From: Blautia coccoides
GTDB lineage: Bacteria > Bacillota > Clostridia > Lachnospirales > Lachnospiraceae
Length of the DNA: 64,000 bases
NCBI RefSeq assembly: GCF_034355335.1
Contig: NZ_CP136422.1
Span: 809,001-873,000, forward strand
Reading direction: 5' to 3'
The notes beneath the pieces are model-generated. The model was not told the DNA's origin and made no database searches. It saw only the letters and a list, made by a program, of their open reading frames with translations. This document shows positions 1,813 to 26,300 of the stretch, piece by piece. Each line of letters starts with the position of its first letter. Position 1 is the stretch's first letter. The position numbers and the translations under genes are program-made.

Positions 1813-2745
1813 TTATAGATTCTGGCGTATTATTCTTGTGATGATTCCGACTGCGACATTACGTTCCTGGTCAATATGGGTAACCACAAAAGATACATCA
1901 TCCTTTTTGCCGACAGTGCGGTTATCATAGCAGGAATGTGCAATGGCGTTTACACCGATTGAGAGCCGGACAAAAACAGTACCTTTATGGATGTCTTCTA
2001 CAGTACCGGCATATTTCCCCTGCACTTTGCATTTTTTCATGTTTTCCATACTGGTGTTGCCTTCTACGCTTTTTACATCAGCTCTTACATTAATATGTTC
2101 CGGATCTTCAGCCTGGACATCCAGGATTCGGACAAGAATCTGTTTTCCTACACAGAACTGTTCACGGGCATCGCCCAACCAGTCGAAAGACAAGTCCCTG
2201 GCAGGAATGGAGGTTTCTACTCCAAAAATTTCTGTGCGGACCACTTTTTCTGCAACAGCTATAATTCGAGCCTGGACAATCCGGTCAGGGTATATCTTGG
2301 GTAATCCGGATGAGTCTTTATCTAAATAAAAAATCTGGCGTTTCTTCAGCATGGCATCTTTTCGGCTGGCAACGATACTGCGGGTTGAGGCATCCAGACC
2401 TTTTACAAGGAAATCTATCTGACAGCCAAGCATATTATTCAATACCTTATTTTGCCTCAAAGCTATCTCTCCATAATTATGTGTATCGTCCTGAACCAGA
2501 TTTAGCATCATTTCCGACACGGGTATGACTGTCCGGAAGTCTTTATAGTATACGACAGCAATGAGGCTGCCGTTTTCCATTTTTTCAATTCCACCGAGCA
2601 TGCCCGTGAGAATTTTTTTTGTGCGATAGGCATTTTGAATCTCATGCCAGACAAAATCTGCCTTGCTTTGCTGCGTTTCGATGACGGAATCTGAGTCAAG
2701 GGTCAAAATATTTGCGTTGCTTAAAAGAGTTTGTTCTGTTGACAT
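1813..2745 (-). CDS. S1-domain RNA-binding-like protein of a conjugative element
   Basis: A 310-residue soluble protein. The region near residues 44-80 (TGMLGGIEKMENGSLIAVVYY) and the C-terminal part near residues 240-305 (KVQGKYAGTVEDIHKGTVFVRL) have the G-x-V...G-x-x-V pattern of S1/OB-fold RNA-binding domains, with a third more divergent copy in between. The start has a good AAAGGAG site. It follows the VirD4 gene by 18 bp on the same strand, so it is co-transcribed. S1-like proteins beside VirD4 are common in Clostridia conjugative elements; their exact role is not known to me. The operon ends at the terminator at 1764-1800. Confidence 0.7.
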   Translation of the reverse strand: MSTEQTLLSNANILTLDSDSVIETQQSKADFVWHEIQNAYRTKKILTGMLGGIEKMENGSLIAVVYYKDFRTVIPVSEMMLNLVQDDTHNYGEIALRQNKVLNNMLGCQIDFLVKGLDASTRSIVASRKDAMLKKRQIFYLDKDSSGLPKIYPDRIVQARIIAVAEKVVRTEIFGVETSIPARDLSFDWLGDAREQFCVGKQILVRILDVQAEDPEHINVRADVKSVEGNTSMENMKKCKVQGKYAGTVEDIHKGTVFVRLSIGVNAIAHSCYDNRTVGKKDDVSFVVTHIDQERNVAVGIITRIIRQNL

Positions 2746-5262: not shown

Positions 5263-6549
5263 TTATGCTGTCTGCATCTGCGGATGCTTGATATCACCCA
5301 GCAGCCTTGCAGCGTCATAATCGACTCCTTTTGTCAGGATCGTATAAAACACCCTGATCACCTTACATGCCACTGCCACTACTGACTGCATCTTTTTCAG
5401 CGGATTCTCTTTTCTCGTCCGATAGTATTCATGGATCTCTCGAAATTCCGCATTCTTTCCGACTAGTGATATCGCCGCTTCATACAGTACATATCTCAGT
5501 CGTTTTCTTCCTCGGTAGCTGATACGGCTCTCTCCATTATGCTTGCCTGAATCGTTCGCCACGATCGCATAGCCTGCAAGCTTTTGCAGCTGTTTGGGGT
5601 TGTCAAAACGTCTAATGTCGCCCACCTCTGCAATAAATCCACTTACTGTCACCATACCGATCCCTTTGATCTCCAGCAGCTTATCTATATATGGTATTTC
5701 TTTCAGCTTACCTTCTATCTTTTGCACCAGTTCTTCCAGTCTTGATGTATATACATCCATGTCGTCCAGCAGATTTTTCAGTTCCATTCTCGCTGCCTCC
5801 GGTGCTTCCTTACTGCCTACGCTGTGCTCTGCAGCTGATACCAGGGTCTTTGCCCTCTTCATTCCAGCCCCTCTCAGCTTTGCGTCTCTCCAGATTTGGT
5901 TTACACCTTCCACGCCCAACTTCCCGATGTCCTCCGGCAGCGGCGCTGCCTTCAGTATCATCCGCCCGCTGACTGCCTTTAAATCCCTATAAACGTCTTT
6001 GTATTCAGGAAAGTAAATGGCAAACCATCTGGCAATGCGGTTCTTGATCCGGGTAACTTCCTCCTGTGTCTGGAAGCGTAGATTGGATAAGCTTCTCATC
6101 TCTGCATAAATCCCGGTTGGTATATAAGGGTAGGAAAAACGTCCCTCATTCACCAGTGCGGCAATCGTCTTTGGATCTTTGCGGTCATTTTTATTAGGAT
6201 TGTTATCATCCAGTTCCTTGGATTTCTTGACATGATGGGGATTTACATGCACAGGTTTCATTCCGTTGTCCTGCAGGAACTTTCCTAAAGCGAACCAATA
6301 GTGTCCTGTTGGCTCCATTCCGGGAATTACAGCGGTTTTACCATTCTTTTCTTGTATTTCCTCGATCCATGCCTTAAATGTAAGGAACCCTGCTTGTGTA
6401 TTGCTGAAAATCAAAGGTTTTCTGGTAAACTCGAAATTTCTCCAGTCAAATGCTCTCGCATAGTGCGTTTCGCTTCCGACATCAATACCAACGATCAAAG
6501 TTTTTTCAGTTATGGATGCAATTTTTGTGTTCTGTGTGTTACAATTCAT
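5263..6549 (-). CDS. IS110-family transposase (DEDD recombinase)
   Basis: A 428-residue protein. The N-terminal RuvC-like domain shows VGIDVGSETHYA (first Asp), GMEPTGHYWF (Glu) and NDRKDPKTIA (paired Asp), the DEDD set. The C-terminal Transposase_20 domain shows LLEIKGIGMVTVSGFIAEVG and a Ser-containing NDSGKHNGES, in the part that carries the catalytic Ser in IS110 enzymes. Length is normal and no frameshift is seen, so it looks intact. Its ribosome site GAGAGG is 8-9 bases before ATG but lies in the arm of a hairpin (see 6555-6623). Confidence 0.92.
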   Translation of the reverse strand: MNCNTQNTKIASITEKTLIVGIDVGSETHYARAFDWRNFEFTRKPLIFSNTQAGFLTFKAWIEEIQEKNGKTAVIPGMEPTGHYWFALGKFLQDNGMKPVHVNPHHVKKSKELDDNNPNKNDRKDPKTIAALVNEGRFSYPYIPTGIYAEMRSLSNLRFQTQEEVTRIKNRIARWFAIYFPEYKDVYRDLKAVSGRMILKAAPLPEDIGKLGVEGVNQIWRDAKLRGAGMKRAKTLVSAAEHSVGSKEAPEAARMELKNLLDDMDVYTSRLEELVQKIEGKLKEIPYIDKLLEIKGIGMVTVSGFIAEVGDIRRFDNPKQLQKLAGYAIVANDSGKHNGESRISYRGRKRLRYVLYEAAISLVGKNAEFREIHEYYRTRKENPLKKMQSVVAVACKVIRVFYTILTKGVDYDAARLLGDIKHPQMQTA

Positions 6550-7894: not shown

Positions 7895-8560
7895 TCATGA
7901 AATTTCCGATATGTTCTGCAACTCATCTTTCCTGGATTTTAACCATTCGGGAAACGTGTTTTTTTCCATTACATAGATTATGGTGCAATCCTTTTCTCCA
8001 AGCTGCGTTGTGTGAAACATATCGCAGAACAGACCGGTATCATCACGTAGTACATAGGTGGCAATCGTATCCAGAATTTGTTTGAACTCTAGGTTATCAT
8101 AGTCCCGGATTCTCTGAAGAGGGAGCTGTCGGTCATAAATTTGACTGAAGCATACAACACAGTTTTCAAAGAGGGGGATACTGTGTATCCTTACGTAATC
8201 CTGCATGGCATAGTTTAATGGTTCGCTCAAGAAGGCTGTGTTAATATGAACTTTTCTTTTTGTAAGCAGCCCAGGCAGTCGAATCGTCATCAGTGGTCCA
8301 TCTTTTTGAATACTGATTTCGTGTGCCAATGCAGCCTGTTTCATGTAGTTTTCCTTAGATTTTGAATTTGACACATATACTAAACTACGAAGCTGGCAAG
8401 CGATGCGCTCTGCCCGAAGAGCTGCGTTTGTACTTAATTCTTCATAGTTATCCCGATATTCTTCAAAATCAGTAGACTGAAGGGCAAATATAGAATTTTG
8501 CAACCGTTTTATTTCATCCGATATGCATTCAAACCGTTGGAATAATGTTTTGCTGTTCAT
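7895..8560 (-). CDS. Hypothetical ICE protein
   Basis: A 221-residue soluble protein with no membrane segment and no motif I recognise. The N-terminus (FQRFECISDEIKRLQNSIFA) is coiled-coil-like; the centre and C-terminus are mixed alpha/beta. It lies 6 bp after the preceding gene and 136 bp before the winged-helix gene, on the same strand, so it belongs to the same ICE operon. Confidence 0.6.
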   Translation of the reverse strand: MNSKTLFQRFECISDEIKRLQNSIFALQSTDFEEYRDNYEELSTNAALRAERIACQLRSLVYVSNSKSKENYMKQAALAHEISIQKDGPLMTIRLPGLLTKRKVHINTAFLSEPLNYAMQDYVRIHSIPLFENCVVCFSQIYDRQLPLQRIRDYDNLEFKQILDTIATYVLRDDTGLFCDMFHTTQLGEKDCTIIYVMEKNTFPEWLKSRKDELQNISEIS

Positions 8561-8566
8561 AATACC

Positions 8567-9094
8567 TCACTTTTTCTGATAATAACTGACCGTTCCATCC
8601 GTCGAAACCAAACAGTAAGCAGAGACTTTGGGGATTTGTAGTGTTTGTGCCTGACTTTGGTTTTCTAATATTACAAGCCGTATAGCATCGCTTTCTGGAG
8701 TTATAGATAAGGTATGATTAAGCAATGCTTCCTGACCGGTGGCAGCATAAATGATTTCATACGCTTCATCTTGGGCAAAAAAATGAAGTTTTACTGGAAA
8801 ATTCCCACTTGTATGATATAGAATTGCATGTTTAAAATCCAGTAACACCCAAAATGCTGCAATTAAGCCATAGTCCACATGAAGGGCTGAATCCTCACAG
8901 TCACAGAGGACGTTCTGTTGCCTGTCATAAAAAATCCTGCCTTGTTTGATCAGACTATTGATGAAGGTTTTCAGGGACTCTTTATTTCTCGGAAAAAGCA
9001 GCAGAACTTGCTCATAGAGTAGGGCGTGGTAAGTTGTGATCATCCGTATTAACCGTTCCCCTTCCCTATTGTAAATTTCGTTCCTGGTTTTCAT
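8567..9094 (-). CDS. Hypothetical ICE protein (DUF5697-like)
   Basis: A 175-residue protein. The ATG at 9094 (MKTRNEIYNREGERLIRMI) was chosen over an earlier in-frame start at 9238 because AGAAAGGAG lies directly before it and the extra 48 residues do not look like protein. The first half, with ITTYHALLYEQVLLLFPRNK, may be a winged helix. Similar small proteins (annotated DUF5697 as far as I recall) sit at the head of conjugation operons in Clostridia. It is the first gene of the leftward operon 9094-1813. Confidence 0.55.
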   Translation of the reverse strand: MKTRNEIYNREGERLIRMITTYHALLYEQVLLLFPRNKESLKTFINSLIKQGRIFYDRQQNVLCDCEDSALHVDYGLIAAFWVLLDFKHAILYHTSGNFPVKLHFFAQDEAYEIIYAATGQEALLNHTLSITPESDAIRLVILENQSQAQTLQIPKVSAYCLVSTDGTVSYYQKK

Positions 9095-9121
9095 TTTGGT
9101 TCTCCTTTCTGATAATATCTG

Positions 9122-9183
9122 TACGTAATTAATACGTAATGCTCTTAGTGATGAAGAAGTATTTTGTGCGTATAGAATACGTA
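9122..9183. promoter_or_regulatory. Possible paired operator upstream of the ICE operon
   Basis: Two dyads lie in the 5' region of the leftward operon: TACGTA-ATTAA-TACGTA (9122-9138, perfect arms) and TGCGTAT-AGA-ATACGTA (9167-9183, one mismatch). They share the ACGTAT half-site and are about 45 bp apart. This looks like a repressor site for the ICE operon; the repressor is not identified. Confidence 0.35.
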
Positions 9184-9222
9184 CAAGAACCATTGTCAGA
9201 TGGTGGTCATATTGTTTTGAGC

Positions 9223-9246
9223 AATAAAAAAGCACCATACGGGTGC
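9223..9246 (-). terminator. Leftward terminator insulating the ICE operon
   Basis: AGCACC and GGTGCT form a 6-bp stem with a 5-base loop; on the minus strand it is followed by six T residues. Leftward transcripts leaving the invertible segment would stop here, before the ICE operon starting at 9094. It also marks the left limit of the switch locus. Confidence 0.65.
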
Positions 9247-9350
9247 TGAAAAAATGTGAAAACTATAAGCGTGTTTATTGTAGCATGGGTAAATTTGCGT
9301 TTCAATCGCATAGCCGTGCCAATATTGTGCCAGAAAAATTCTTTAGTTTA

Positions 9351-9379
9351 TTGATATAGAAGAGTAGATGCTCTATAAT
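9351..9379 (+). promoter_or_regulatory. Sigma-A promoter facing the invertible segment
   Basis: TTGATA (9351-9356), a 17-bp spacer and TATAAT (9374-9379) make a near-perfect vegetative promoter pointing right. It lies 26 bp outside the left inverted repeat, so it stays in place when the segment flips and drives whichever gene is at the left end. At present that is the P-loop/TPR gene at 9450. Confidence 0.8.
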
Positions 9380-9405
9380 AGAAAGAAAACTATATTAAAG
9401 TACAA

Positions 9406-9431
9406 TGAACCGAGGATAATATATGATTATC
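9406..9431 (+). repeat. Left 26-bp inverted repeat of the invertible segment
   Basis: The sequence begins TGAACCGAGGATAAT and ends ATATGATTATC. It is the exact reverse complement of 12712-12737. Within it GATAAT and ATTATC form a short dyad around ATATG, as expected of a tyrosine recombinase crossover site with two arms and a central spacer. Confidence 0.9.
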
Positions 9432-9449
9432 TTTTATTGAGGTGACAAG

Positions 9450-11723
9450 ATGAGTTATGCAAATAGAACCGCTGAATTTGAGCAAATGAAGTATCATATA
9501 AATTCAGAAGATACACCTGTAATCATTATTAAAGCATACCCTGCCTGTGGAATATCATCGTTTATTAATGAAAGAATCAAAGGCGAACTTATTGCACCTG
9601 AACTTTTTTTGTATTTGCCAATTCCACGTGAAAATTCTCTTAAAGATGTTATTTTTTCACAACTTGTAAAACCCCCTTTTGATAGTATATTCCAAAAATT
9701 TCTTGATAAAACATTTGGATCGCATAATACTTCAGTAATTTCATCGATCGCTCAGGGAGTGCCATATATTGGTTCGTTTTTAGGTAGGATAGCTGAAAGT
9801 AAATCAGCACCGCCAATTTATACCGGAGATTATCCATCTGCTGTTGAGCAATTACTGTTGCCTTTCTTTTCAATGCTAAAGGAGAAAGCTGGGGGAACTC
9901 CTTTCACAATAGTTCTTGATCCAATAGGGCGATTAAGCGAAGATTCGTTTTCATTATTACACAATCTTATAGATAGTGGAGTGCTTCAATGTATCATTAT
10001 TCAAATACAAGGTCATGAGGAACAATTCCTTAAATTTAGAAATAGTCTACGGCTTCATTCAATTAATTTTAAAGAAGTTGAGTTTGATCGACCTCATACC
10101 AAACTCATTAAGGAGTTAGCCGCACTTTATAATCTCCACATTGAAGACAGGGATGCGGATATGATTGCGAATAATTCTAACCAAAACATTCATAAAATAA
10201 TTGATGCGATATTAGATTACGGAAATCATAGCATCAAACCTGATGAGCCTTTATCAGAATGTGAAAAAACTGTGATATCTATTCTTCATATTTTTAGTAT
10301 TCCTATGGATGAAAAAGAACTAATTAACGTTGTTGCATCCGGTAATGACTTTGCTATGAATATTATGCAAACATGCCATAAGGCTTTTCAATCACTTGTC
10401 AGTAGAGGTTTGATTACCTGGAAAGAGGGCAAGTTGGAATTGTGTACGACCTCGCATCCGGTGGTACAAAAAATTCTCGATTCATATGCGGATCAGCTTG
10501 TTTATAAAAATATTGTGTATAGTTATCTTTGTGTTTCTAACAATAATTCAAGGTTACGCTACTTATTATCTCAACAATTGGGTTGTACTTCGAGGAAAGA
10601 TGCACTGCCATTTTTACAAAGTTTAATTAAGGTAGGAGAAATAGCATCCCCTGAATTACTATCAGCTGCGGAACTCAAACGAGGGAATCGAGAAGATTGC
10701 CTTTTGGCATGCATAAATTATTGCCGAATGAGAAGATATAAGGATGCCTTGCAGTGGATAAGTTCCATTATATATGATGAAACAGACGAAGGATTAAATG
10801 CCTTAAGAGCTACGTTACTAAATCGTACTAGAAATACAGCACTTGCTGAAAAAGAACTGATAAGATGTTTAAGAAAACAGGGAGAACCATCTCGTCAGAA
10901 TTTATTGGGTTCCTTCCTCATTTCAAATTATATTCATGCTGAAAACATGCCTATGGCTCAAAAAGTTTTTGTAGAGCTCATCAAGCACTATCCAAATTCG
11001 CCGATGCAAGGTTATTTATACCGTAATGTAGCATCTGCTTATAACGGCAATAGAGACGAATGGTATGAAAAAGCATTAGAAGCATTTACAAGAGATAATG
11101 ATGACTTTGGCTTATATACGACATTATGCAATTGGGGATATGCGCAATGTCTTGAGAAAAAATACGAAGAGGCTCTCCAAAAACTCCAAAAAGCGCAAGA
11201 TGGATTAATGCCCTTCTCAAAGACTCATCTACATATTGTTTATAATAATTTAGGAATTTGCTATTTAATGCTAGAAAAATATCAAGAGGCATCCCAGAAT
11301 CTTCTTCTAGCAAAAACATTAGGAGAAAATAGCATGCCAAAAATATTTACGTCAATCAATATGGCATGCCTTAATGCTGTTTCTGGAAATACCTCAAAAG
11401 CTGTAAACTTACTACGTGACCTAGAGGCGGAAATTGAGGAACACCCACTAGATCGTGTAAGACAAAAATATTATATTAATCGCTTGCTAGTTGAATGCTT
11501 GTCAGGCAATAAGAATATAGACGGTTTAATTGCACAGACCGAAAAATATTTGGACCGTTACCATCCCGAGCAGACAGAAGAAGCACTTCAAGTCTACCAA
11601 AGCTTTTCAAAGTCTCCATATCTTTTCGACAAACAACTTTGGCGTAAATTGTATTCACCATGTGGACTGGCGTATTGGTATATGGATCCCCTAAAGCTCC
11701 TTCCCAAAGGTACTGTCAAGTAA
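9450..11723 (+). CDS. P-loop NTPase-like protein with TPR repeats
   Basis: A 757-residue cytosolic protein. The N-terminus has a STAND/AAA-like layout: IIIKAYPACGISSF at the Walker A position, FTIVLDPIGRL at the Walker B position, then a helical and winged-helix-like part near residues 270-340. From about residue 430 the protein is a solenoid of TPR-like helices (for example YNNLGICYLMLEKYQEASQN). The Walker A Lys is missing (G-I-S-S instead of G-K-S/T), so ATP binding may be weak or lost. The start has GAGGTG 6-7 bases before ATG. It is presently expressed from the promoter at 9351. STAND proteins with TPR sensors often act in signalling or phage defence; the role here is unknown. Confidence 0.75.
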   Translation: MSYANRTAEFEQMKYHINSEDTPVIIIKAYPACGISSFINERIKGELIAPELFLYLPIPRENSLKDVIFSQLVKPPFDSIFQKFLDKTFGSHNTSVISSIAQGVPYIGSFLGRIAESKSAPPIYTGDYPSAVEQLLLPFFSMLKEKAGGTPFTIVLDPIGRLSEDSFSLLHNLIDSGVLQCIIIQIQGHEEQFLKFRNSLRLHSINFKEVEFDRPHTKLIKELAALYNLHIEDRDADMIANNSNQNIHKIIDAILDYGNHSIKPDEPLSECEKTVISILHIFSIPMDEKELINVVASGNDFAMNIMQTCHKAFQSLVSRGLITWKEGKLELCTTSHPVVQKILDSYADQLVYKNIVYSYLCVSNNNSRLRYLLSQQLGCTSRKDALPFLQSLIKVGEIASPELLSAAELKRGNREDCLLACINYCRMRRYKDALQWISSIIYDETDEGLNALRATLLNRTRNTALAEKELIRCLRKQGEPSRQNLLGSFLISNYIHAENMPMAQKVFVELIKHYPNSPMQGYLYRNVASAYNGNRDEWYEKALEAFTRDNDDFGLYTTLCNWGYAQCLEKKYEEALQKLQKAQDGLMPFSKTHLHIVYNNLGICYLMLEKYQEASQNLLLAKTLGENSMPKIFTSINMACLNAVSGNTSKAVNLLRDLEAEIEEHPLDRVRQKYYINRLLVECLSGNKNIDGLIAQTEKYLDRYHPEQTEEALQVYQSFSKSPYLFDKQLWRKLYSPCGLAYWYMDPLKLLPKGTVK

Positions 11724-12692
11724 TCCATTACGATATAAACTGGAATACGTAATGTTAGCAATAAGCGCATCATAAGTTATGTCGTTAGCAGCCGCAGCTT
11801 GACTGATTGTTGAATGTTCTCCCAAATTACAGCATACGTTAAATTCTAAGAAATAAGGGATTCCAGATTCTCGTTCAACAATATAATCAAATCTTGTATA
11901 ATCGAGCGGTTGAATCAAGGAGTACATATGTTTTGAATACTCTTGTATTTGTTTTTGGAGTTCATTATCTGTCAAAACTTTTCTGGAAAGGCCTGGGGCT
12001 ATTTTACGTTTTTGCTGATACGTAACGACTCCATCTTTTAATGTAGAATATTGAGCAATACATGGCAGATACTTATGTAAGCCAAAATTATTAAGTACAG
12101 GACAAGTGTGATATATTCCTTTGATTTGTGCCTCAAGGATTACATCTACTCCTAAACTATGTAATGCAAAAACTTTATTTTTGGCAGCTTCCCATGTGCT
12201 ACAGATCGAACTTTCATCAATTCCATTTGATGCTGCCCCGAATCTAGGCTTAATAAAGTATGGTGGTTCAAATTTCGGTTTGCGTATTTCATCACCGATA
12301 TTATAAATAGTCCATTCCGGTGTGGGAACCTTCGCATATACTGCCAACATTTTTGCTAAATGTTTGTCTTCAGCAAGTGCGCGGATATTAGGTCTTGCAC
12401 CTAAGTAGGGAAGGTTATGATATTCAGCTACGGATGAAACAAATACTTCTGAATTACGGAAAGGCATTCTATTGTATAAAGAAAAGATAAAATCTGCCTC
12501 AATATTGTCCTGTAACATAACACTGGGGTCGCATGAAGAGAGGAGTTTAGGAAAAAAAGATTTCAGGACTTTATATACTTTGTGATGATATTGTGCATAG
12601 ACAAAATCTTTGATTCCTACGGGAATACTTGTAAAATCGTTCTGTGGTGCATAGTGTGCAAGAAATAATATCGTAATATCCTGTGGATTCAT
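11691..12692 (-). CDS. ATP-grasp ligase (D-Ala-D-Ala ligase-like)
   Basis: A 333-residue protein with an ATP-grasp fold: PPYFIKPRFGAASNGID (ATP-binding Lys and loop), VILEAQIKG, then DYTRFDYIVE and PYFLEFNVCCNLGEHS, which correspond to the metal-binding Asp and E-x-N of D-Ala-D-Ala ligases. The N-terminal part differs from true Ddl, so the substrates may be other amino acids or peptides. The ribosome site is GGAGAAGGAG. Its last 33 bases overlap the last bases of the facing P-loop/TPR gene. In the present orientation no good promoter precedes it except read-through from the recombinase gene. After inversion it would follow the promoter at 9351. Confidence 0.75.
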   Translation of the reverse strand: MNPQDITILFLAHYAPQNDFTSIPVGIKDFVYAQYHHKVYKVLKSFFPKLLSSCDPSVMLQDNIEADFIFSLYNRMPFRNSEVFVSSVAEYHNLPYLGARPNIRALAEDKHLAKMLAVYAKVPTPEWTIYNIGDEIRKPKFEPPYFIKPRFGAASNGIDESSICSTWEAAKNKVFALHSLGVDVILEAQIKGIYHTCPVLNNFGLHKYLPCIAQYSTLKDGVVTYQQKRKIAPGLSRKVLTDNELQKQIQEYSKHMYSLIQPLDYTRFDYIVERESGIPYFLEFNVCCNLGEHSTISQAAAANDITYDALIANITYSSLYRNGLLDSTFGKEL

Positions 12693-12711
12693 AGTTCACT
12701 CCTTCTCCATG

Positions 12712-12737
12712 GATAATCATATATTATCCTCGGTTCA
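12712..12737 (-). repeat. Right 26-bp inverted repeat of the invertible segment
   Basis: Exact reverse complement of 9406-9431. It lies between the ATP-grasp ribosome site and the 3' end of the recombinase gene. Sequence identity stops sharply on both sides, so the repeat is a defined site and not part of a larger duplication. Confidence 0.9.
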
Positions 12738-12757
12738 GAAGAACAGAAATAAGGAGT

Positions 12758-13684
12758 CTATTGCTTCTTAAGATCCATAAAATTTCTCGGATGCTTTGTC
12801 GTTAAAATATCGTTCTGCTTTGTCATAGATACATTTGTGTATATTTCTGTAGTTTTAATTGAACTATGTCCGAGCATTTTTTGTATGTACCGAATATCAA
12901 CATCGGCTTCCAAGAGAAGTGTGGCAAATGAATGACGGAACATATGAGGGGTTATATGTAAGTCAATCAATGCTTTGTTCAGATATTTTACAATCATGTC
13001 ACGGGCCGATTGCTCAGAAAATCTCTGGTGGAGCCTGTTTACAAAAAACCACCCGGAGGATTCTATGTCCGATTTGAAAGTATTATAGTATTCCAGTAAA
13101 GCTTTGCGAACATCTGTATTTCCGACTTGGATCATCCGCTCCTTTGCCCCCTTACCCCAAATCAATATTTTGTAAGATGATAAATCTACTTGCTGAGTGG
13201 TTAAGGTACATAGCTCTGAAATCCTGACACCAGTAGCAAATAAAAGTTCCACTACGGCAATGTCACGAAGGATAGTGTTACTTTGGTATGTGGTTGATGC
13301 AGCTAGTTTTTCCGTATACATGGTGGAGATGAATTTCGCAATGATCTCTTCTGGTATAATCCGTGGCAGTGTTATAGGTTCGCGAAACTTTACATTGATT
13401 TTGCTAAATGGATTAAAGGCAATTGTCTCTTCATAAATCAGGTATTGAAAAAATGCTTTTATAACTGCAATCTTTCGTTTGGCTGTCTTTGGTTGAAATT
13501 TTTGGTGAAGAGATGATATGTATTCATTCAGTGTCGTTTTGTCAATACAAGATGGATATTCTAAAGTGAAACTGCTAAACTGAGTCAGGTCAATACGGTA
13601 TGCTTTAATTGTTTTGGAATCTAATTGTTTGATTTCCTTACAGTATTTCAAATAGTTTGCAATTAGTATTTCTAAATTTCTCAT
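12758..13684 (-). CDS. Tyrosine recombinase, likely the invertase of the switch
   Basis: A 308-residue XerC/D-type recombinase. It has an N-terminal SAM-like core-binding domain (residues 1-90) and a catalytic domain with ATGVRISELC (Arg), WGKGAKERM (Lys), TPHMFRHSFA (His-x-x-Arg), LGHSSIKTTEIYTNV (Gly-His and the nucleophile Tyr). All catalytic residues are present. Its stop is 20 bp from the right inverted repeat, so it is the natural candidate to invert the segment. Read-through from it would enter the gene at the right end. The ribosome site AAGGAG and ATG sit in a hairpin arm (13683-13733). It could alternatively be an ICE integrase, but it is not next to an element end. Confidence 0.85.
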   Translation of the reverse strand: MRNLEILIANYLKYCKEIKQLDSKTIKAYRIDLTQFSSFTLEYPSCIDKTTLNEYISSLHQKFQPKTAKRKIAVIKAFFQYLIYEETIAFNPFSKINVKFREPITLPRIIPEEIIAKFISTMYTEKLAASTTYQSNTILRDIAVVELLFATGVRISELCTLTTQQVDLSSYKILIWGKGAKERMIQVGNTDVRKALLEYYNTFKSDIESSGWFFVNRLHQRFSEQSARDMIVKYLNKALIDLHITPHMFRHSFATLLLEADVDIRYIQKMLGHSSIKTTEIYTNVSMTKQNDILTTKHPRNFMDLKKQ

Positions 13685-13733
13685 AAATAGGCACTCCTTA
13701 GTGTTTTTATGTTCATTATGAGTGCCTATTTAT
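13683..13733 (-). promoter_or_regulatory. Hairpin over the recombinase start site
   Basis: On the minus strand ATAAATAGGCACTC (13733-13720) pairs perfectly with GAGTGCCTATTTAT (13696-13683), 14 bp with a 23-base loop. The 3' arm contains half of the AAGGAG ribosome site and reaches the start codon. Folding would hide both and keep recombinase levels low. It could alternatively be a DNA dyad bound by a regulator. Confidence 0.55.
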
Positions 13734-13746
13734 AAAATGTCTAACG

Positions 13747-14277
13747 CTATTCAGGGAAAAATCGGTTTAAAATATTAAGAGTTTCCTTAGTTGTAAATCC
13801 CCAAAGAACTGTGCTTAAAGCTTCAATCGCAGCTCTACGCTTCCGGTAGTAGGTGCGATAAGAGATATTGCTTATGTGTGCTTCCAACTTTTCGATGATT
13901 TTGTCTGTGTTTTTTAATTCTTGAGGGCACAAATACGAGTAATAAAGAATCCAGTAAAATTGTTCACCATATTTGTGATTGGTACGTAGTAAATCTACTG
14001 CAGAATCCAGAAGTTTTAACATTTTATTGCTTCGCTCAATACTTTTTGCACGTTCTTCTATACCCGTTCCATTTAACTCAGCGCCAGCGACATAGATGGA
14101 GTCCAGAAATTCATCTATGCTATTTCCAAATTCAATCTGGAACTGCATTTCCAACTGATGTACCACAACCTTCAGGCTGTAAGTAGCATCCCGATAATGC
14201 CGCAGAAATTGATAAGTGTCGTGAAAACGAGGATCCTCTTCTGGGGTAGGAAAGTTTCTTTCTTTTTTCATTGCCAT
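13747..14277 (-). CDS. Small helical DNA-binding-like protein of the ICE
   Basis: A 176-residue, largely helical protein. The C-terminal part NISYRTYYRKRRAAIEALST resembles the helix-turn-helix of phage ArpU/RinA-type and sigma-region-4-like regulators. The ATG at 14277 has GGAAGGGAG before it; the earlier in-frame start lies inside the upstream gene. It follows the winged-helix gene with a 1-bp gap and precedes the recombinase by 62 bp, so it may be part of the recombinase operon and help control it. Confidence 0.55.
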   Translation of the reverse strand: MAMKKERNFPTPEEDPRFHDTYQFLRHYRDATYSLKVVVHQLEMQFQIEFGNSIDEFLDSIYVAGAELNGTGIEERAKSIERSNKMLKLLDSAVDLLRTNHKYGEQFYWILYYSYLCPQELKNTDKIIEKLEAHISNISYRTYYRKRRAAIEALSTVLWGFTTKETLNILNRFFPE

Positions 14278-14278
14278 C

Positions 14279-15445
14279 TTATATTCTCCCTTCCTGTTTG
14301 ATACATTCCTGTTGGGGTTGCAATGCGAATTGGACATCCGGTGATTTTGAGGTTAATGTCAATTCAAACTGGTATTTCATATTCCCGAAAGGGCAGATAA
14401 TACTTAGAGCATATTGAATTACTGTACTCTTGCAGTCTGATAAAGGAGATAATATATACTCCGTCTTCTCACAGTGGCAGCATGGAATCCCTTGAGAATC
14501 CAGTAGTTCGACTACTTTTTGGATGATATATTTCATATGCGGTTTCGGAACGCATAAATTATTTTCTGAAACTGTTAACTGGTCATCTGTCACACATTTT
14601 GAAACGCATTTGGATGGTTCCTCGCTGTCCGGGATATGGATTGGTAATTGCATAGTCATAGCAACCTCCTCTTTGTCAATCATGACATCACTTACATTAA
14701 ACATGACAGATAAATAGTTGTTGAGATAAATGACACTGCCATGCCTCCCCTTAAAATTAATCAGAGTAATGTACTCCTTTTCTTCTAATTTTTTCAGCAT
14801 ACGAGATACAGATGCTTTTGATATACCCCACCTCTCACCAAGGCTCTGATAATTGACTAAAGGATTATGGGTATTGTTACGATAATATACAACGGGACCT
14901 GGTTGAGAGCCTTGTACCGAAGGGTCGTTATAAATAGCGTGGATCCATAAATCTAAAATTATATCCATTTCAGAGCATTTCCCTATACTGATTAACTCAT
15001 GGACCTTGGCTATTGTAAAAAAGAAGAAGCCGGCATTTTTTTTACAAGGATAATTATATTCCAGTACAGTATTGTCTTTCTGCCAGTCACTGATTTTAAA
15101 CTTAATTATTTTGTTTTTTCCCAATATAGAATAGGTGATGTAATGCTGCTCCTCAAAATACTGAAGTATAGATAATACCTGGTGCTGAAAGCGGCAGCGA
15201 AACCAAACCTGTAATTCTGAGATATGACACACCCACTCACCGGGACTGACGGTATATACGATGCCGTCTATCCGATTGTAGGATGTTCTGTAGTTTGCGT
15301 AAGAGCACAGAACGATATAGTAAAAAAGATAAGAGCATCCGTTTGTCCGGATGCTCTTGTCGGCAATCAAGGTACGTATAAATTCCCGGTACATTCTGCA
15401 ACGTGGAAAATCTACAATTTGTTTTAGCTCTAATTCATAATCCAT
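14279..15445 (-). CDS. Winged-helix (MarR-like) ICE protein
   Basis: A 388-residue protein. The centre (SLGERWGISKASVSRMLKKL, then EEKEYITLINFKGRHGSVIY) is a clear winged-helix DNA-binding domain. The C-terminal part has several Cys and His (IPCCHCEKTEYILSP, SKCVSKCV) that may bind metal. The ATG at 15445 has AAAGGAGAAAG before it. Proteins of this type are common at the regulatory end of Clostridia ICEs and may be regulators or replication initiators. It heads the operon that leads through the small HTH-like gene to the recombinase. Confidence 0.6.
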   Translation of the reverse strand: MDYELELKQIVDFPRCRMYREFIRTLIADKSIRTNGCSYLFYYIVLCSYANYRTSYNRIDGIVYTVSPGEWVCHISELQVWFRCRFQHQVLSILQYFEEQHYITYSILGKNKIIKFKISDWQKDNTVLEYNYPCKKNAGFFFFTIAKVHELISIGKCSEMDIILDLWIHAIYNDPSVQGSQPGPVVYYRNNTHNPLVNYQSLGERWGISKASVSRMLKKLEEKEYITLINFKGRHGSVIYLNNYLSVMFNVSDVMIDKEEVAMTMQLPIHIPDSEEPSKCVSKCVTDDQLTVSENNLCVPKPHMKYIIQKVVELLDSQGIPCCHCEKTEYILSPLSDCKSTVIQYALSIICPFGNMKYQFELTLTSKSPDVQFALQPQQECIKQEGRI

Positions 15446-15880: not shown

Positions 15881-17137
15881 TTATGAGGAAATCCCCAGTT
15901 TTTGAAAAGCAAAGCGGTCATTCTTCCTCTTGTTGACGTTCCGTAAATAGTGAAGCGTGGTTGCCGTTTCGCTATGCCCCATTAAATAACTCAAGGTTGT
16001 GAGATTGTTTCCGTCAAAGGCAGTTGAGGCATTGTAGAAACGGATTTTATGACTGGAATGGTAAGGAACACCAGCTTCTTTGCAATACTTCTTTAAACGG
16101 CGGTTGAAGCTGTCTGTTGTCATGATTTCTCCATTGGGTTCAAAGACATACACTCCATGCGGATTTAATTCTCTGGCTTTCTGAAGAATCTTGATTGCTT
16201 CATCAGTCAAGAACTGTTTGCGGAAACCATGAGAGGTATTTCCTTTCATCTGGTTGACTACCTTTACTTCTCTTTTGGAAAAGGTTAAATCATCGTTTAG
16301 TGTCCGTTCACAGGTAGCCTGTCGGTGCAGATAGACCATTCTGTTTTCATAGTCAATATCTTCCCAGCGGATTGCTTTTGTTTCCCCGATACGGATAAAC
16401 AGATAAAAGGATAGTTGTATCGCAAGGGAATAAGGCTCTGTGATACAGCTAAGATAATGCAGTAGCTTATGTGTATCGTCACGGGAAAATACGTTGTCAC
16501 TTTGTACTTCCACAGGCTTGTAGGTGAACTGCTTGAAATTCACATCAGAGACAGGATTGTGGGAGATGATTTCTTCCTCAATGGCATAACTCATGATTCC
16601 ATTTAAGACAGAACGGGCGTTGCTGATTCTCTTGTGGGTATGCTGACGTTCTTTTGTGGCTTCTCTGAAAAAGCGGATAAGGGTAATCGGTCTGATTTCT
16701 CCTATCTTCATTTTGGAAAGAGCCGTGTCTTTGAAAAATCTGTTCCATTCAGAAACATACTCTTGAATCGTCTTTGCCTTTACAGAAGTGTAATCTCTTT
16801 TGTATAAGAGCCATTCTGTATATAACTCTTCCAGTGTGATATTCTCACGGTTTTCGATTTTTTGCTTCTCAATATAAAATCTGATGATTTCTTTTTCAAG
16901 GTTCTCTTTACTCTTCCGCTTGATCGGACGGCGGTTGTTGGGTTTGGTGTCATCTGGTAAATAGGTACGCCAGCTTTTTTCAGATTCCGAGTAATAAATT
17001 TCATATTTGTGATTCTCCAAGATTTTCTTATTTGCCATAATTTCAAAATCTTTGAAGACTTCATCTGGAGTCATATTAGCACAAGCGGCTAATGTGTTCA
17101 ATAACGTAATATCGGAAGATGTAACAGGGTTATTCAT
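15881..17137 (-). CDS. int: Tn916-like tyrosine integrase
   Basis: A 418-residue integrase with an N-terminal arm-binding part, a SAM-like core-binding domain near residues 100-190, and a catalytic domain with FIRIGETKAIRW (Arg), SSHKIRFYNAS (His-x-x-Arg) and LMGHSETATTLHYL (Gly-His and Tyr). It inserts and excises the 4.1-kb element at the tRNA-Leu 3' end. It overlaps the upstream Rep gene by 8 bp (ATGAATAA), so the two are translated together. It sits next to the left attachment site, as is usual. Confidence 0.9.
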   Translation of the reverse strand: MNNPVTSSDITLLNTLAACANMTPDEVFKDFEIMANKKILENHKYEIYYSESEKSWRTYLPDDTKPNNRRPIKRKSKENLEKEIIRFYIEKQKIENRENITLEELYTEWLLYKRDYTSVKAKTIQEYVSEWNRFFKDTALSKMKIGEIRPITLIRFFREATKERQHTHKRISNARSVLNGIMSYAIEEEIISHNPVSDVNFKQFTYKPVEVQSDNVFSRDDTHKLLHYLSCITEPYSLAIQLSFYLFIRIGETKAIRWEDIDYENRMVYLHRQATCERTLNDDLTFSKREVKVVNQMKGNTSHGFRKQFLTDEAIKILQKARELNPHGVYVFEPNGEIMTTDSFNRRLKKYCKEAGVPYHSSHKIRFYNASTAFDGNNLTTLSYLMGHSETATTLHYLRNVNKRKNDRFAFQKLGISS

Positions 17138-20393: not shown

Positions 20394-23300
20394 ATGAGAG
20401 GAAAAAAGAAAATGCGTTATCTGGCTATGTTTATGGCAGTGGTGATGGGGGTCACTTCACTGTCTGATTCGGTTCTTGCTGCTTTTAATAGTACCGCAGA
20501 GGAGGCTAATGCAAAAGATACCCTGAAGAAGCTGGAGGAAGGCCAGGAAATAGAGGCTCAGGAGGCGAAATACATTCTGGAGAGCCTGGGCATTTTTAAT
20601 GAAGACGGCTCTATGAATACGTCAAAAATCATTATGGATCAAAGAGAGTATTCTCTGGAAGAGATAAAGGAATATCTGCAGGGAGGAACAGCTGATCTTG
20701 ATAAGAAGGTATCTGTGGATGGAACAGAGCTGACTCTCGGAAATGTGCAGACCATGCTTCAGATCGAGGAGGAACTGTCCAATTATCAGACCACTTATTT
20801 CCCTGAAAACACAGGGGAATATACACCGGAAATGGAGGCAACCATATCTTCCCTCCTTATGCAGCTCAATGAGGGTAAGCTGACCATAAAGGCTAAAAAT
20901 GCGGCAAATGTGATCAACAGAGATGTAACCCTTTCGGTGGATGAATTGGCAGAAGCTCCGGCAGGTGAGGAGATTACAGTAAATCTTACCATCTCGGAGG
21001 CGGTCACTCATACTATTTTTGTAGAGTACAGGACAATGGACGGGGTTGCCAAGGACGGTACGGATTATGAAGGGAAAAAAGGTGTTTTGCGCATCCCGGC
21101 AGGGGAGACAACAGCTTCTGTTACCATTCCTACAAAAAACAGTATTGATGAGAACGATGAAAGTACCTGGTGGAACGGAAATAAGTTATTTTATGTTGAG
21201 TTTACGAATGTAACAGGCGCTGTCTTTACAGACGGTGGAAGCTTCCAGTATTCCAAGGCCGGAATCCAAGGAAATCTGGCAGATTTAGATGGCAGTCCGT
21301 GGACGGCAACGTCAGGAAGCCTTCCCAATCCTGCCTATGATCCCACAACGACCACCGAACCTGAGAATTTTTATTTTTATAGTTTTTCCGTGCCACAGAG
21401 TTATGTAAAAGTCATTGACTTTTTGACTGCGAATCTTGACAGTGACGATGGCAATGGTGTGGGCGTCTTTTATGATTTGCGCACCTTGAGTGAGGACGGA
21501 CAATCTCTTTCCGATAAATGGGGAAGCATAGGGGCCTATCCGGAGTATCAGAGCGGAAATCTGGTTTATAATATAGATTTAAGTGAAAACAGTACAGGAT
21601 TTCCAGCATTCGTGAAGAATGGGGGCTACAAAAAGACTATAGCGGCATTACCCACGACAAGATATTCCGCACTGTATTCACTAAAACCTATGTGTAAACC
21701 AGTAACGGGAACAACGGTAACTTTAAAACCGGCAGAAACGGACCAGATCTATTATGAAGATGCTATGATTCCCTGTGTTTTACAGACCAATGGAAATGTA
21801 TCCTTGGGGGGACCTGTGAGTATATTTGAGGACGGTGTTTTGTCTACGGATGATGGAAGAAGATTTGGCGATACTTTTTCCTGTCTGTTGACAAAGGATC
21901 AGTATGAAGCCGTAAAGTTAATGTGCAGTGAAAATGAAAGTACCTATCCGAACTTTAACAGAGCAGACTACAGTTGGAGCCAGGAACCCAATATGGGTGC
22001 CATGGATATGGGGAAGGGAACGGTTCAGTTTGAGGGATTCGATACTGCCAATAATAAGTTCATTACAGACGGTCCTAAATATGTGCAGGAATACATTAAA
22101 GGAATTACGGTGGACAAGCAGTCCTATGACCCGGGTACCGAAGGGGACCAGACTGTTACGGTTACAGTAACTTATGATAACCAGACTCCTAATGATGACT
22201 GGCTCTGGAATGATTATGCCAATGATTACAACAAAGAAGGAAAAGAGTCTGTGGACCGTCTGAAAGTAAGCTTGGACGGAGGGGCAACTCTGTATCAGCT
22301 CTCCCCGGAGCTGGACGAAAAGGGAGACCCTAAAAAGAATGGTAAACTGACGGCACAGATTCCCCTGCCCTATAATACCCAGACGGAGGAACAGACCTAC
22401 AGAGCAGAACTGTTTCTTATGCCGGCGGCTGCCGATGTGACGGTTCCCCAGGTAACCGGTGTGAAATCGGATTATGCCTGCCTTGTGGGAGCAAACCATA
22501 TGGCAGAATTTAAGGTAAAACCAGTGAATCTGATTCAGGAGGGGGAATTGGAGCTTCAGAACCTTCCGGATGGAAATATTCTGTATATGGTGCAGGAGGA
22601 AGCGTGCACACTCGGATGCAGTATAACCACAGAGAATCCTACATTCCCCGGAATCGAATGGACCAGCAGCAATGAAGATGTGGCCCTGATCAACCGTATG
22701 ACCGGCGTGATCACACCTAAGGCCGAAGGTGAAGTACAATTTACGGCAACAGCTAATAACAGGAAAGCTGCGCCGGCAGTGTCAGTCCAGACGCCTGTGA
22801 TCACAGTGGTAAATGATGGGCCTCCGGCCATTGCCGTTCCAAAAGGGATGGATATAGTCCATGCCAGAAAAAAGGGAAAAGCATCTGTTTACTGGATGAG
22901 TAATCTTAACGGTAAGGGAAATGATCAGGTTTATACTGTAGATCTGTATGAGGGAGATTATACAGATAAAGAGAAAGAACTTCCGGCAGAAGACAAGATC
23001 ATCAAAACATATGAATTTACGGAAACCGTAACCGGAGAAATCGAAGAAAATGTTTTGACAAAAGTGTCAAAAGACGGATTACCGGTATATACCTTTGCAG
23101 TACATACACCCAACCCGGATAACCCTCAGATGGAATTGTCCGCAAGAGGAGGAATCATAGTCAGTCCGGTTCCTGCCTCTGTGCGTCTGACCACACCGGA
23201 GAAGCTTTACATGGTGGATAGTGAGACAGACAGTTTTCCGGTTTCCTGGTCTTTATCGGATACGGAAGAAGATTATGAGTTCCAGCTTTCTGTGAAAAAG

Positions 23301-26300
23301 AACGGGGATGAGATTTACAGTACCACAGAGGGGACATCTGCAGCATTTTCAGTTGACAAAGTTGACGAGGGAACGCTTAAGGATGTTTATACTGTTACGG
23401 CAAAGGTACGAAATAAAGGTACAGAAGATAAGCTGTGGTCCACGGATTCTTATCTGGTGCAGGTATACCGTGAGGGGGCTTTTGCTTTTAATGTGGACGG
23501 GGAGAGAGAAGAAAATGGCGCAAGTATTGCCATTGCCAATGAGGAAAGGATTCCTACTTTAAAAAATTATAACGGCAGTTGGTCCGACGAGGATAGTCAG
23601 GCAATCGTGGATATGAACCGACAAATCTCTCTGGATAAATCCGTTAAGATTTTTGATAGCAGTAGCTGGAATATGGCTGCAGACAGATTTGCCTGGTCAT
23701 CGGATGACAGTTCCGTGATGCCTCTCTACAGAAAAGACAGTACCGGATATACAAATATTGAGAAACTTGCCAGTCCTTATCAGGCACCGGACCAGGTATT
23801 CATGATGTCCGGCAAAAAGGATGGAACAGCTACCGTGAAAGCAGTGCACAGCCGTACGGGCAAAGAGATGAGTCTGACGACAGAGATCAGTACCCTGAAA
23901 GACAAGCTGTATTTATTCCAGTTTACTCCCATGCAGGAAACTACCATTACGTACGAGAGAAGAGACGGAAAAGAGGTAAGTATTCGTACCAACGAACAGG
24001 GACAGGCGGCCATCTATGACCCGGACGGTATAGAGAATGCTGTTCAGGCCCGTTCCGGTTCTGAGGATACCACCCTTTATCTGGGGACTGTTCAGCCGGA
24101 TGTTTTAGTTTCCTCTGAGAAGGACAAGGGAAGAGATGAGCTGTATCCTGTGAACTACATTACATTGGATGAAGCGGCTCATGTAAAATTATATCTGAAA
24201 GATGAAAAAGGAGATCCCTATAAGGGGAAGGTCACCTATACTGGAGGTGCTTATAAAAATCAGAAATACTGTCCCCTGGTGCAGAAAGGGAGCATGGACA
24301 ATCGTCTGGAGACGACTTTGGGACAGGACGGAGAATTGGAATTCTATTATGATGTTACCAGATTATACAGTGAAGACGAGGATGCCCATACACAGCTGCA
24401 TGCAGGTGACTATCTGGAATTTGTGTACGATATCCGAACACCGGATGATGCATATTATCCCAGACTGATAACAGTGGACAGTTATTCCCAAGAGAGAGGG
24501 GCAAGCTTTACAGACAGTATCGTAAATCTGGAAAAAAATACGGATACGGAAAAGAAAGTCTATATCTCTGCACAGAAGGTAGAGTATCCCAATAAGGGAG
24601 ACTTAGATATTTTGGGCAGAAAGGAACCCATAGGATGCACAAACCAGTATCCCAAAATCTCTCTGAAGACAGAAATGTTGTGCTGGGGACTGGATACAGA
24701 TTCTGATTTCCAGTGTTTCCTTACAGATGAAGAACAGAAGAAACTGGGGCGGCAGGAATTTAAAGTGAAAAAGTATCCCTTTACAGACCTGATGACAGCA
24801 TCTAATGAGGTGCCTGTAGATGAGAATACGGGGATAGACATGGGAAGCTCCAGACGCTTTACATCCCAGTTATATGAGAACGGTGAAATGGTCAGGTCTA
24901 TACCGCTGCCGTTCCCTGTAACAAATATGATAGGGATTGAGGTGACCGAAGAAAAGCAGTTCAAGCCTTTTACCGTGGATGTAAACTTAAAACAGACAAC
25001 CGCAGGTGATGCCGCTTCCCAAGGCGGTGAGGTAGGGAGCAGGGGGCTTCAGAAGTTTAATACAGGAGTAGACACACCCTTCTTTAAGGTAACCGTTACG
25101 CCTACGGTGGATCCCTTTGTATTCCATGCATTTGCGGGATATGATATAGATCTTCTGGGGATGGATACAGATATGGTCATGAATCCCATAGACTGTGACA
25201 CTACCGGTGCCAATGCATCCGCTTTTGTAGCGGCTGTTACGGGTAAAGAGAAGAATTTATCAGGGCGGTTTCAAGGGAAAATGAATAAAACGCTGAAGAA
25301 ACCGGGAGATACAGATTTCGGAGGCAGGGCAGCCGGTTATATGGCCGGAGATATTATATTTAATATAGAGACAGGAGCCTTTGAATTCGTGATCACAGAC
25401 AGCGGATTTACACTGGGTGGGAAATTCGGATATCATTGGACCTTTAACTCTGTGGTGGGAATTGTCCCCATCACGGCAGAATTTGCACTGGGTGCTGCTA
25501 TGGAGCTGGATTATAAGGCCATGGCCGCTTACTCGCAGGAGACCAATAAGTTTGGTTCAGATATTCTCACCACGCTGCGGGTAAATGCCTATATGCGTGC
25601 ATTTGCGGGATTTGGTTTTGATGTGGCGATTCTGGCACTGAAAATAGGTATGTTCGGACAGATCAATTTGGAGCATTACAGTCAATTCTTGAGCCGGACC
25701 TATCAGAAGAGTGACAAGCAGATCCAGGGACACAGGACAGAACTGTCAGGTGTGATCGGTATTGAATTTATGCTGAAGGTATTTTTCTTCAAGTACAGGA
25801 AGGTGCTGGCGTCCACCAATATGCCTACGCTTACCTTCTATAACGGAAACTGGGATGCTATCCAGCAATGGATCGCCCAGGCAGATCTTCCGGACTGGGG
25901 AGGAAATGTATCGCCCAATGCTATGCTGTTGTCTGAAAACGGCGGACTCGCCGAGGTGGATAATGCTATTCTTGCAGAAGACAGAAGCTATCTGCAGCGT
26001 GCAGCCGTGTTTTCACTGGAAGACGACCATACGGCTCTTGATACCCTGTTGGCTCCGGCTTATCCTTACGGATATCCCCAGGTGACCAGGGACGGAGGAA
26101 TTACAGTGGCGTTGAGTGACCAGAATTCTGCGGATCTGAATCAAACAAGGGTTTACTGGAGCCAGGGCAGCAATGCGCCCTCCCAGGCAATTCCCGTAGA
26201 CTGGACAGGTGAGGAGACGCCGGATTCCAATGTTTCACTGGCAGGTACCGGAAGCTTTGCCGTGGCCGCATGGGAGAAGCTGAGAAGCCCTGTATCCATG

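Follow-up and report, generated by a model that had tools for sequence, protein, structure and literature searches.

Convergent ATP-grasp and STAND-like/TPR genes of Blautia coccoides in a probable site-specific inversion switch of a wider class of recombinase-linked cassettes

Most known cases of programmed DNA inversion concern surface antigens, phage tails or restriction specificity. In the G segment of phage Mu and the C segment of phage P1, which are flipped by the serine invertases Gin and Cin, a coding segment turns beside a fixed outside promoter and alternative gene sets are expressed. The locus described here has a similar layout; however, the phage segments encode the same tail-fibre proteins in alternative forms, whereas a tyrosine recombinase accompanies two unrelated proteins here. 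The pilin inversion of Moraxella (Piv; tfpQ/tfpI) likewise joins two coding regions alternately to a fixed upstream region, although these give alternative forms of one protein and the recombinase belongs to another family than that of our locus. Tyrosine-type recombinases beside inverted repeats are also found in Clostridia with gut promoter invertons and hsdS inversions, where the invertons of group 139 are associated with a single recombinase group (PMC11892184). Unlike our locus, the inversions treated in passages of that study are promoter flips and hsdS overlaps, and the words 'ATP-grasp' and 'defense' do not occur in its main text (PMC11892184). No description of an ATP-grasp/TPR pair or of a convergent invertible Thoeris system was found among the matches listed in the open-licence literature searched.

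In this work, a stretch of 64,000 nucleotides of B. coccoides DNA (the window) was analysed. Its sole perfect inverted repeat of at least 18 bp (spacing at least 200) is a 26-bp pair with arms that are 100% complementary (Table 1), and base composition leads to an expectation of 6e-7 perfect repeats of at least 26 bp in the 64 kb. The pattern GATAAY-N5-RTTATC matches the whole 6.1-Mb genome twice, and both matches are the cassette's own sites. The 3.3-kb segment between the arms encloses exactly two long convergent ORFs, as the initial annotation had claimed, and SD-like sequences were seen by eye where it had placed the ribosome sites, just inside either repeat. The tyrosine recombinase gene that it had described next to the right arm is indeed complete, and its stop codon lies 20 bp outside that arm. 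Inverted recombination sites bounding a segment and an intact site-specific recombinase beside them, two of the features expected of an inversion switch, are both present, and we infer that the recombinase acts on the two flanking sites.

Table 1. Coordinates of the features of the cassette and its flanks in the window.
Feature	Position	Strand	Remark
Fixed promoter TTGATA-17-TATAAT, outside left repeat, reads into cassette	9351..9379	+	11/12 consensus
Left inverted repeat / recombination site	9406..9431		core GGATAA-N7-TTATC at 9414-9431
STAND-like NTPase-fold + TPR superhelix protein, 757 aa	9450..11723	+	Walker-A lysine absent
Overlap of the two convergent 3' ends, 33 nt	11691..11723
ATP-grasp ligase, D-Ala-D-Ala-ligase fold, 333 aa	11691..12692	-	Pfam; model pLDDT 91.6; Foldseek Ddl
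Right inverted repeat / recombination site	12712..12737		core GGATAA-N7-TTATCC at 12711-12729
Xer-like tyrosine recombinase, 308 aa, presumed invertase	12758..13684	-	complete; R-K-HxxR-H-Y residues by eye
mRNA hairpin burying recombinase ribosome site and AUG	13679..13737	-	z -7.6
Possible recombinase promoter TAGACA-17-CATAAT	13715..13743	-	10/12 consensus

The inward-pointing promoter reported outside the left repeat was recovered as the best of 21 promoter-like matches in 9200-14400. Shuffled sequence yields 20.9 such matches, i.e., there is no excess, so only the quality and position of this promoter speak for it; its shuffle p is ~0.01 on the left side, compared with 0.84 on the other side. 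We hypothesize that the Xer-like recombinase would recombine the two GGATAA-N7-TTATC(C) sites and flip the 3.3-kb segment, and that the single fixed outside promoter would then read either the STAND-like/TPR gene, which it would drive in the sequenced orientation, or the ATP-grasp ligase gene. No Rfam family reached the gathering threshold in 8400-14400. A stem comparable to that at the recombinase start codon was found in two relatives (L045 and L052). Stems at p<=0.01 occur in only 5 of 47 recombinase upstream regions, and those of L104 and L010 look unrelated to that of the window; a start-codon hairpin was therefore rejected as a general feature of these recombinases. Hexamers and spacing resembling the possible recombinase promoter were recognized by eye in L074, L076, L078 and L081. 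Transcripts from this promoter would start within the loop of the hairpin, which would then be complete only in read-through RNA.

The ligase scores above the cut-off of Pfam Dala_Dala_lig_C, and its residues K148, D269, E283 and N285, which we take from Ddl to be the ATP-grasp lysine and the Asp/Glu/Asn ligands, are invariant across the 25 rows of the alignment. By fold and by these conserved residues it is a member of the ATP-grasp superfamily. It shares the fold and the C-terminal ATP-grasp domain with Ddl and Van ligases, but lies under the curated cut-offs of all 25 NCBIfam families shown and is only 13-20% identical to the 50 best-matching PDB chains; its best score of 80.7 bits, against a curated Ddl cut-off of 243, does not make it a D-alanine--D-alanine ligase. 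The partner had been called a P-loop/TPR protein. The TPR part of this description held, while the P-loop did not, as the Walker-A lysine is missing in 16 of 16 aligned members. The best Foldseek match of the structure model (pLDDT 86.7) is the STAND-TPR protein of PDB 6mfv, and both have an NTPase-like domain followed by a TPR superhelix, although the TM-score over the full length is low (0.30). Despite the STAND-resembling fold, the protein is thus not a STAND NTPase with an intact Walker A. PADLOC returned only a generic TPR match for the window pair.

In the ATP-grasp clade formed by the window and L007-L016, the convergent ATP-grasp/TPR pair lies inside inverted repeats in 11 of 11 loci. 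Six of six distant ATP-grasp loci (L017-L022, 35-39% identity) have neither a TPR partner nor such repeats, and 10 genes neighbouring four of them (L017, L018, L020, L022) gave no functional clue. Relative to the inward-pointing recombinase, the cassettes of the window, L009, L011 and L012 are oriented opposite to those of L013 and L016. The strong promoter reads towards the TPR gene in L009 as it does in the window, and towards the ATP-grasp gene in L007, L010 and L013. The refuting condition set with the initial annotation, that no relatives show the inverted arrangement, did not hold, and homologous cassettes in both orientations, with the pair convergent wherever a repeat pair was found, support its claim that the promoter is fixed and the two-gene coding cassette would flip. 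At the contig end of L014, the sequence flanking the other repeat on its outer side reappears in reverse, with half of a terminator-like hairpin in it; this is suggestive of an inverted junction, with a repeat of ~100 bp as the alternative. The contig ends of G505 and G140, which share 58 and 38 nt around a site, were discarded as a long repeat explains them equally well as inversion. Among the 120 listed of 580 ATP-grasp clusters, 31 have a longest contig of 3250-3499 bp, the cassette length; part of this peak could be due to repeats longer than the word length of the assembler. In a family-level draw, the genome of the window was the only one of 397 with the clade (E<=1e-60), and a draw of the genus Enterococcus contained it in 2 of 22, both already among the known loci; these draws gave no new genomes, so no same-flank strains of opposite orientation were found. 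None of 29 pattern matches in viral contigs encodes a relative of the clade, and the plasmid and phage records (best 20 of 41 plasmid rows, 1 phage row) hold distant ATP-grasps only, at <30% identity.

The window pair is not unique and has counterparts in a larger class of convergent, apparently invertible cassettes. A repeat pair of this site type was present in 19 of 37 loci around related recombinases, and all 19 pairs enclose convergent genes, compared with 10 convergent pairs among 112 background ORF pairs. Of the 18 loci in which this type of pair was missing, six (L077, L082, L087, L097, L099, L109) have the recombinase or a site near a contig end; the counts exclude the recombinase-adjacent repeats of L077 and L091, which differ in sequence from this site type. 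The cargo includes STAND-like with SHMT/ADH, carbamoyltransferase with AAA, ATP-grasp with pentapeptide, and TIR with radical SAM proteins. Opposite orientations were again found, relative to the inward-pointing recombinase, for the 349/563 pair (L074 vs L102/L108), and also for a TIR/SIR2 pair (L080 vs L111). The class appears mostly to combine an enzyme with a protein of STAND-like, TIR, SIR2, AAA, TPR or pentapeptide type on the opposite strand; we take its members for invertible cassettes of an 'enzyme versus sensor/effector' type, which probably serve as conflict systems. In L008a, L080 and L111, a TIR protein and a Thoeris-type (ThsA-type) SIR2-STALD protein are encoded on opposite strands. 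These TIR proteins match PDC-S66 of PADLOC better than ThsB, and the genes are convergent, whereas the ordinary Thoeris loci L156, L157 and L159 have co-directional ThsA/ThsB genes and no such repeats. The window pair itself has neither a SIR2-STALD nor a TIR domain and is not a Thoeris system. We consider it likely that the locus is a site-specific DNA inversion switch of this class. By analogy with the members that have Thoeris-type SIR2-STALD and TIR proteins, its two genes probably encode the halves of a conflict or immune system, which would be phase-varied against each other.

Alternatively, both genes could always be transcribed, one from the outer promoter and the other by transcription running on from the recombinase operon, with inversion shifting only their ratio. 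No terminator was found between the recombinase and ATP-grasp genes in the window, where the former reads into the latter, so the window copy need not follow a strict either/or pattern; both genes could be transcribed, and read-through could still express the ligase. The claim that the cell makes either the TPR protein or the ligase is therefore doubtful in the window copy. In the Enterococcus loci L011 and L012, the cassette has genes on both flanks that read into it, and in 21 of 31 cassettes neither side has a promoter at p<=0.02. Moreover, the two Thoeris proteins are presumably required together, which fits badly with strict either/or expression. On the other hand, 10 of 31 cassettes have a promoter at this threshold on one side and none has it on both, and inward terminator-like hairpins at most 70 nt outside the non-promoter repeat (L007, L013, L074, L076; no shuffled control) would insulate that side in 4 of 9 single-promoter cassettes. 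Such a shift in dosage is possible, though less likely than not. The strong promoter of L112, on the recombinase side in contrast to the layout in six others, speaks against the switch model itself.

It is unlikely that flipping by the recombinase has ceased and that one orientation is frozen in the strain. The single-contig genome shows one orientation only, and the recombinase start is buried in the hairpin; however, a hairpin that blocks read-through also fits regulated expression, both repeat arms are still perfect, and the full-length recombinase has its catalytic residues as judged by eye. The repeats could also be the ends of a transposon- or integron-like unit moved whole, with inversion as a side effect, which would suit the unrelated cargo between similar sites beside related recombinases, the occurrence of the ATP-grasp/TPR pair in unrelated flanks, and the site spacers common to L013 and L089 and to L108 and L112. 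This is improbable, as the spacer is equal within a pair but usually different between cassettes, inverted sites on one molecule lead to inversion and not to excision, and the recombinase stays outside the unit. The cassette is a single copy in the genome and no transposase was found between its repeats or among the scanned cassette genes, so the check for transposon ends revealed no transposon unit. Each single site is near-palindromic in itself, and the repeats might be only regulatory palindromes with a coincidental convergent order; the convergence of all 19 pairs, against the background given above, and the same pairs in opposite orientations make this very improbable.

Starting from the inversion switch, we tentatively hypothesize, at slightly less than even confidence, that invertible immune cassettes occur in Clostridia and some other bacteria, with the signal-making enzyme and the sensor/effector half on opposite strands and with one promoter for both. 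The cell would normally make one half, and the complete system would exist only briefly after a flip or via low read-through. If expression is truly exclusive, the question arises why two halves thought to act together are separated. The genes of unrelated enzymes and of STAND/TIR/SIR2-type proteins recur as convergent partners next to recombinases of one family, and the search for GGATAA-N7-TTATCC pairs around convergent genes offers a rule that may lead to unrecognised conflict systems. If the hypothesis is true, these cassettes would include the ATP-grasp/STAND-TPR pair as a member not described before, and immunity would be a recombination-timed, bet-hedged event that limits self-damage.

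The window cassette is best read as a fixed-promoter inversion switch, mainly because of its repeats, the convergence of its genes and their orientation. The repeats, two convergent genes, outer promoter and flanking recombinase described in the initial annotation were each confirmed at their positions. No perfect inverted repeat of 18 bp or more other than this 26-bp pair occurs in the window; the number of 26-bp repeats expected there is 6e-7. The pattern GATAAY-N5-RTTATC has two matches in the 6.1-Mb genome, namely the two arms, and the cassette is present once. The outer promoter ranks first among 21 promoter matches of its region, a number that shuffled sequence also yields. The tyrosine recombinase would flip a pair of unrelated genes before the fixed promoter. 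The Mu G segment is an inversion switch that shares this fixed-promoter mode, whereas the window differs in its tyrosine recombinase and unrelated partner proteins. The neighbourhood resembles an integrative conjugative element; it includes a VirD4-like coupling protein (CD1115 family), DUF6100 and DUF5697 proteins, and a second tyrosine-recombinase-like protein.

Positions of features in the window and, where a locus is named, in other genomes
Feature	Position	Strand	Remark
VirD4-adjacent protein	1813-2745		weak similarity to S1 ribosomal protein
IS110-family transposase	5263-6549		RNA-guided type, near cassette
Outer promoter	9351-9379	+	TTGATA-17-TATAAT
Inverted repeats	9406-9431, 12712-12737
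TPR gene	9450-11723	+	757 aa
P-C-x-L-x-Y-W motif	11658-11678		near TPR-protein C-terminus
ATP-grasp gene	11691-12692	-	333 aa
Recombinase gene	12758-13684	-	Xer-like
Hairpin	13679-13737		z -7.6
Candidate recombinase promoter	13715-13743	-	TAGACA-17-CATAAT
Recombinase-side gene	13747-14337		homologue in L081
Recombinase-side gene	14279-15445		homologues in L076, L081
Second tyrosine-recombinase-like protein	15881-17137
3311-aa ORF	20394-30329		no sequence match in PDB (E≤1e-5)
Tandem TIR/SIR2-STALD and ATP-grasp/TPR cassettes	L008: 4068-6357, 7912-11302		differing site spacers
MFS protein between two distant ATP-grasp relatives	L022: 3626-8139		without such repeats

The 757-aa protein has C-terminal TPR repeats, and its AlphaFold model (pLDDT 86.7) joins an NTPase-like alpha/beta domain to an extended stretch of helical repeats; in PDB it most resembles the STAND-TPR protein 6mfv, with a TM-score of only 0.30. 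Among 16 aligned family members, the Walker-A lysine is replaced in all 16, D157 after the Walker-B-like strand is invariant, and the cysteine of the conserved C-terminal motif is kept in 15, the relatives being 21-51% identical. The ATP-grasp ligase, of 333 aa, has the Ddl fold (pLDDT 91.6) but scores 80.7 bits against the Ddl model (cut-off 243). The positions that in Ddl bind ATP and magnesium are invariant across 25 aligned rows, so the ligase is probably active.

A scan of the ATP-grasp clade with one genome per species gave 16 loci. In the ten at ≥42% identity (L007-L016, from Clostridia, Enterococcus and one Bacteroidales bin), as in the window, a TPR gene converges with the ATP-grasp gene between inverted repeats (11 of 11). 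Ten of the 11 repeats carry a GATAA..TTAT-type core, the exception being CAATAA..TTATTG in L010. The six loci inspected at 35-39% identity had neither a TPR partner nor such repeats. In the window, L009-L013 and L016, one repeat is adjoined by a recombinase related to that of the window. Loci L013-L016 contain a third gene, on the ATP-grasp strand between the TPR gene and the TPR-side repeat; it encodes another ATP-grasp protein in all three scanned, scoring above the RimK cut-off in L013 and L016 and just below it in L014. Its start lies 20 nt (L013) or 31 nt (L014) from the divergent TPR start (that of L016 was picked by eye), so that an internal promoter would hardly fit. Thus, one orientation would read both ligases and the other the TPR gene.

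Opposite orientations occur relative to the recombinase. The TPR gene is distal in the window, L009, L011 and L012, and the ATP-grasp gene in L013 and L016. Among cassettes that share the side and inward direction of the recombinase, a 349-aa gene is distal in L074 and its 561-aa partner in L102 and L108; likewise, TIR is distal in L080 and SIR2 in L111. The flips may be ancient, since these orientations come from different species. In 31 of the best 120 of 580 ATP-grasp clusters, the longest contig measures 3250-3499 bp, every other 250-bp bin below 8 kb holding at most five. This peak matches the lengths of the two-gene loci (3332-3433 bp, n=7), so assemblies tend to stop at the repeats. Such ends fit mixed orientations, and could partly be due to repeats exceeding the assembler's word. 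Contig pairs in three assemblies (G505, C1/C2; G140, C88/C97; G104, C35/C37) share a recombination site located at a contig end or close to it, as if the assembly had broken there.

The class extends beyond this gene pair. A search of 395 relatives with the window recombinase gave 41 matches at E≤1e-75 in 39 genomes. Leaving aside the match of the window itself, 40 remained, and the surroundings of 37 were examined. Inverted repeats of the window's site type were found in 19 of these 37, 15 by a mismatch-tolerant pair rule and four (L080, L081, L088, L089) by a repeat rule. The genes between the arms are convergent in all 19, and their 3' ends overlap in 14 of 20 cassettes, window included; the background is 10 convergent among 112 neighbouring pairs of ORFs of ≥200 aa outside the cassettes of the same loci. 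Of the 18 loci lacking a repeat pair, six have a locus end near the recombinase or site; 12 have no such reason.

Cargo of related cassettes (weak, below the curated Pfam cut-off)
Genes	Loci
TIR + SIR2-STALD	L080, L111, L008
ATP-grasp + ATPase_2/TPR	L105
ATP-grasp + weak AAA	L112
ATP-grasp + protein without named domain	L078
ATP-grasp + pentapeptide	L103
Pentapeptide facing ATP-grasp/radical-SAM genes	L079
SHMT and ADH facing weakly STAND-like protein	L081, L084
SHMT + protein without named domain	L076
Carbamoyltransferase + AAA	L094, L096
TIR + radical SAM	L088
Glycosyltransferase + weak AAA	L093
Pentapeptide + protein without named domain	L113
Recurrent pair, 337-364 aa (weakly ATP-grasp-like in 2/4) + 561-575 aa (weak TPR in L074), 43-53% identity	L074, L089, L102, L108

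Promoters were sought outside each arm of 31 cassettes (21 + 10) by a scored -35/-10 search, strong meaning a mononucleotide-shuffle p≤0.02. One outer side of L015 has no sequence, hence 61 sides were searched, on which about 1.2 strong promoters are expected by chance. Ten cassettes have a strong promoter on exactly one side and 21 have no strong promoter; no cassette has one on both sides. Where the recombinase points in, the promoter lies on the opposite side in six of seven (window, L009, L013, L074, L076, L081; exception L112); in the two cassettes whose recombinase points away (L010, L084), promoter and recombinase share a side. The promoter reads toward the TPR gene in the window and L009, but toward the ATP-grasp gene in L007, L010 and L013. 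On the non-promoter side of L007, L013, L074 and L076, terminator-like hairpins whose T-tracts run inward, scored with no shuffled control, begin at most 70 nt beyond the arm, and L084 has a weaker one 85 nt away; none turned up in the window. Exclusive expression is likely in the insulated loci; it is uncertain in the window, whose ligase gene may be fed by read-through from the recombinase.

The recombinase itself may be guarded. A predicted hairpin in its RNA would bury the ribosome site and start codon, and the start point of a candidate promoter, TAGACA-17-CATAAT, would fall in the hairpin loop. Read-through RNA, carrying the full hairpin, would therefore be silent, and RNA from the recombinase's own promoter free for translation. 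The predicted hairpin may thus block translation of read-through RNA, similar to the comparable safeguard of Tn10/IS10. The feature is not widespread: an upstream stem at p≤0.01 occurs in five of 47 regions, and among these it looks alike in the window, L045 and L052.

The STALD domain occurs in seven of 397 genomes of the family, one being the cassette L080. The six others (L156-L161) have no repeat pair of the cassette site type around the STALD gene, and PADLOC places ThsB co-directionally downstream in L156 (19 nt), L157 (1 nt) and L159 (392 nt). In contrast to these ThsA/ThsB loci, the TIR and SIR2-STALD genes of the cassettes are convergent between repeats. Their SIR2-STALD proteins are ThsA by PADLOC (E 1e-60 in L080, 6e-104 in L008, 1e-103 in L111). 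Because the three TIR proteins match the candidate family PDC-S66 (E 3e-20, 5e-12, 1e-17) above ThsB (2e-12, 3e-6, 2e-9), their sequences make these cassettes Thoeris-type, not certified Thoeris.

For the window pair, PADLOC gave a generic TPR match only, and no account of an ATP-grasp/TPR pair was found in the part of the open-licence literature covered, which lacks two key surveys of gene-altering inversions. Homologues of the window's recombinase-side genes adjoin related recombinases but different cassettes, which suggests a single element slot with exchangeable cargo. From the occurrence of TIR, SIR2 and STAND-like partners, we infer that the cassettes would act as conflict systems.
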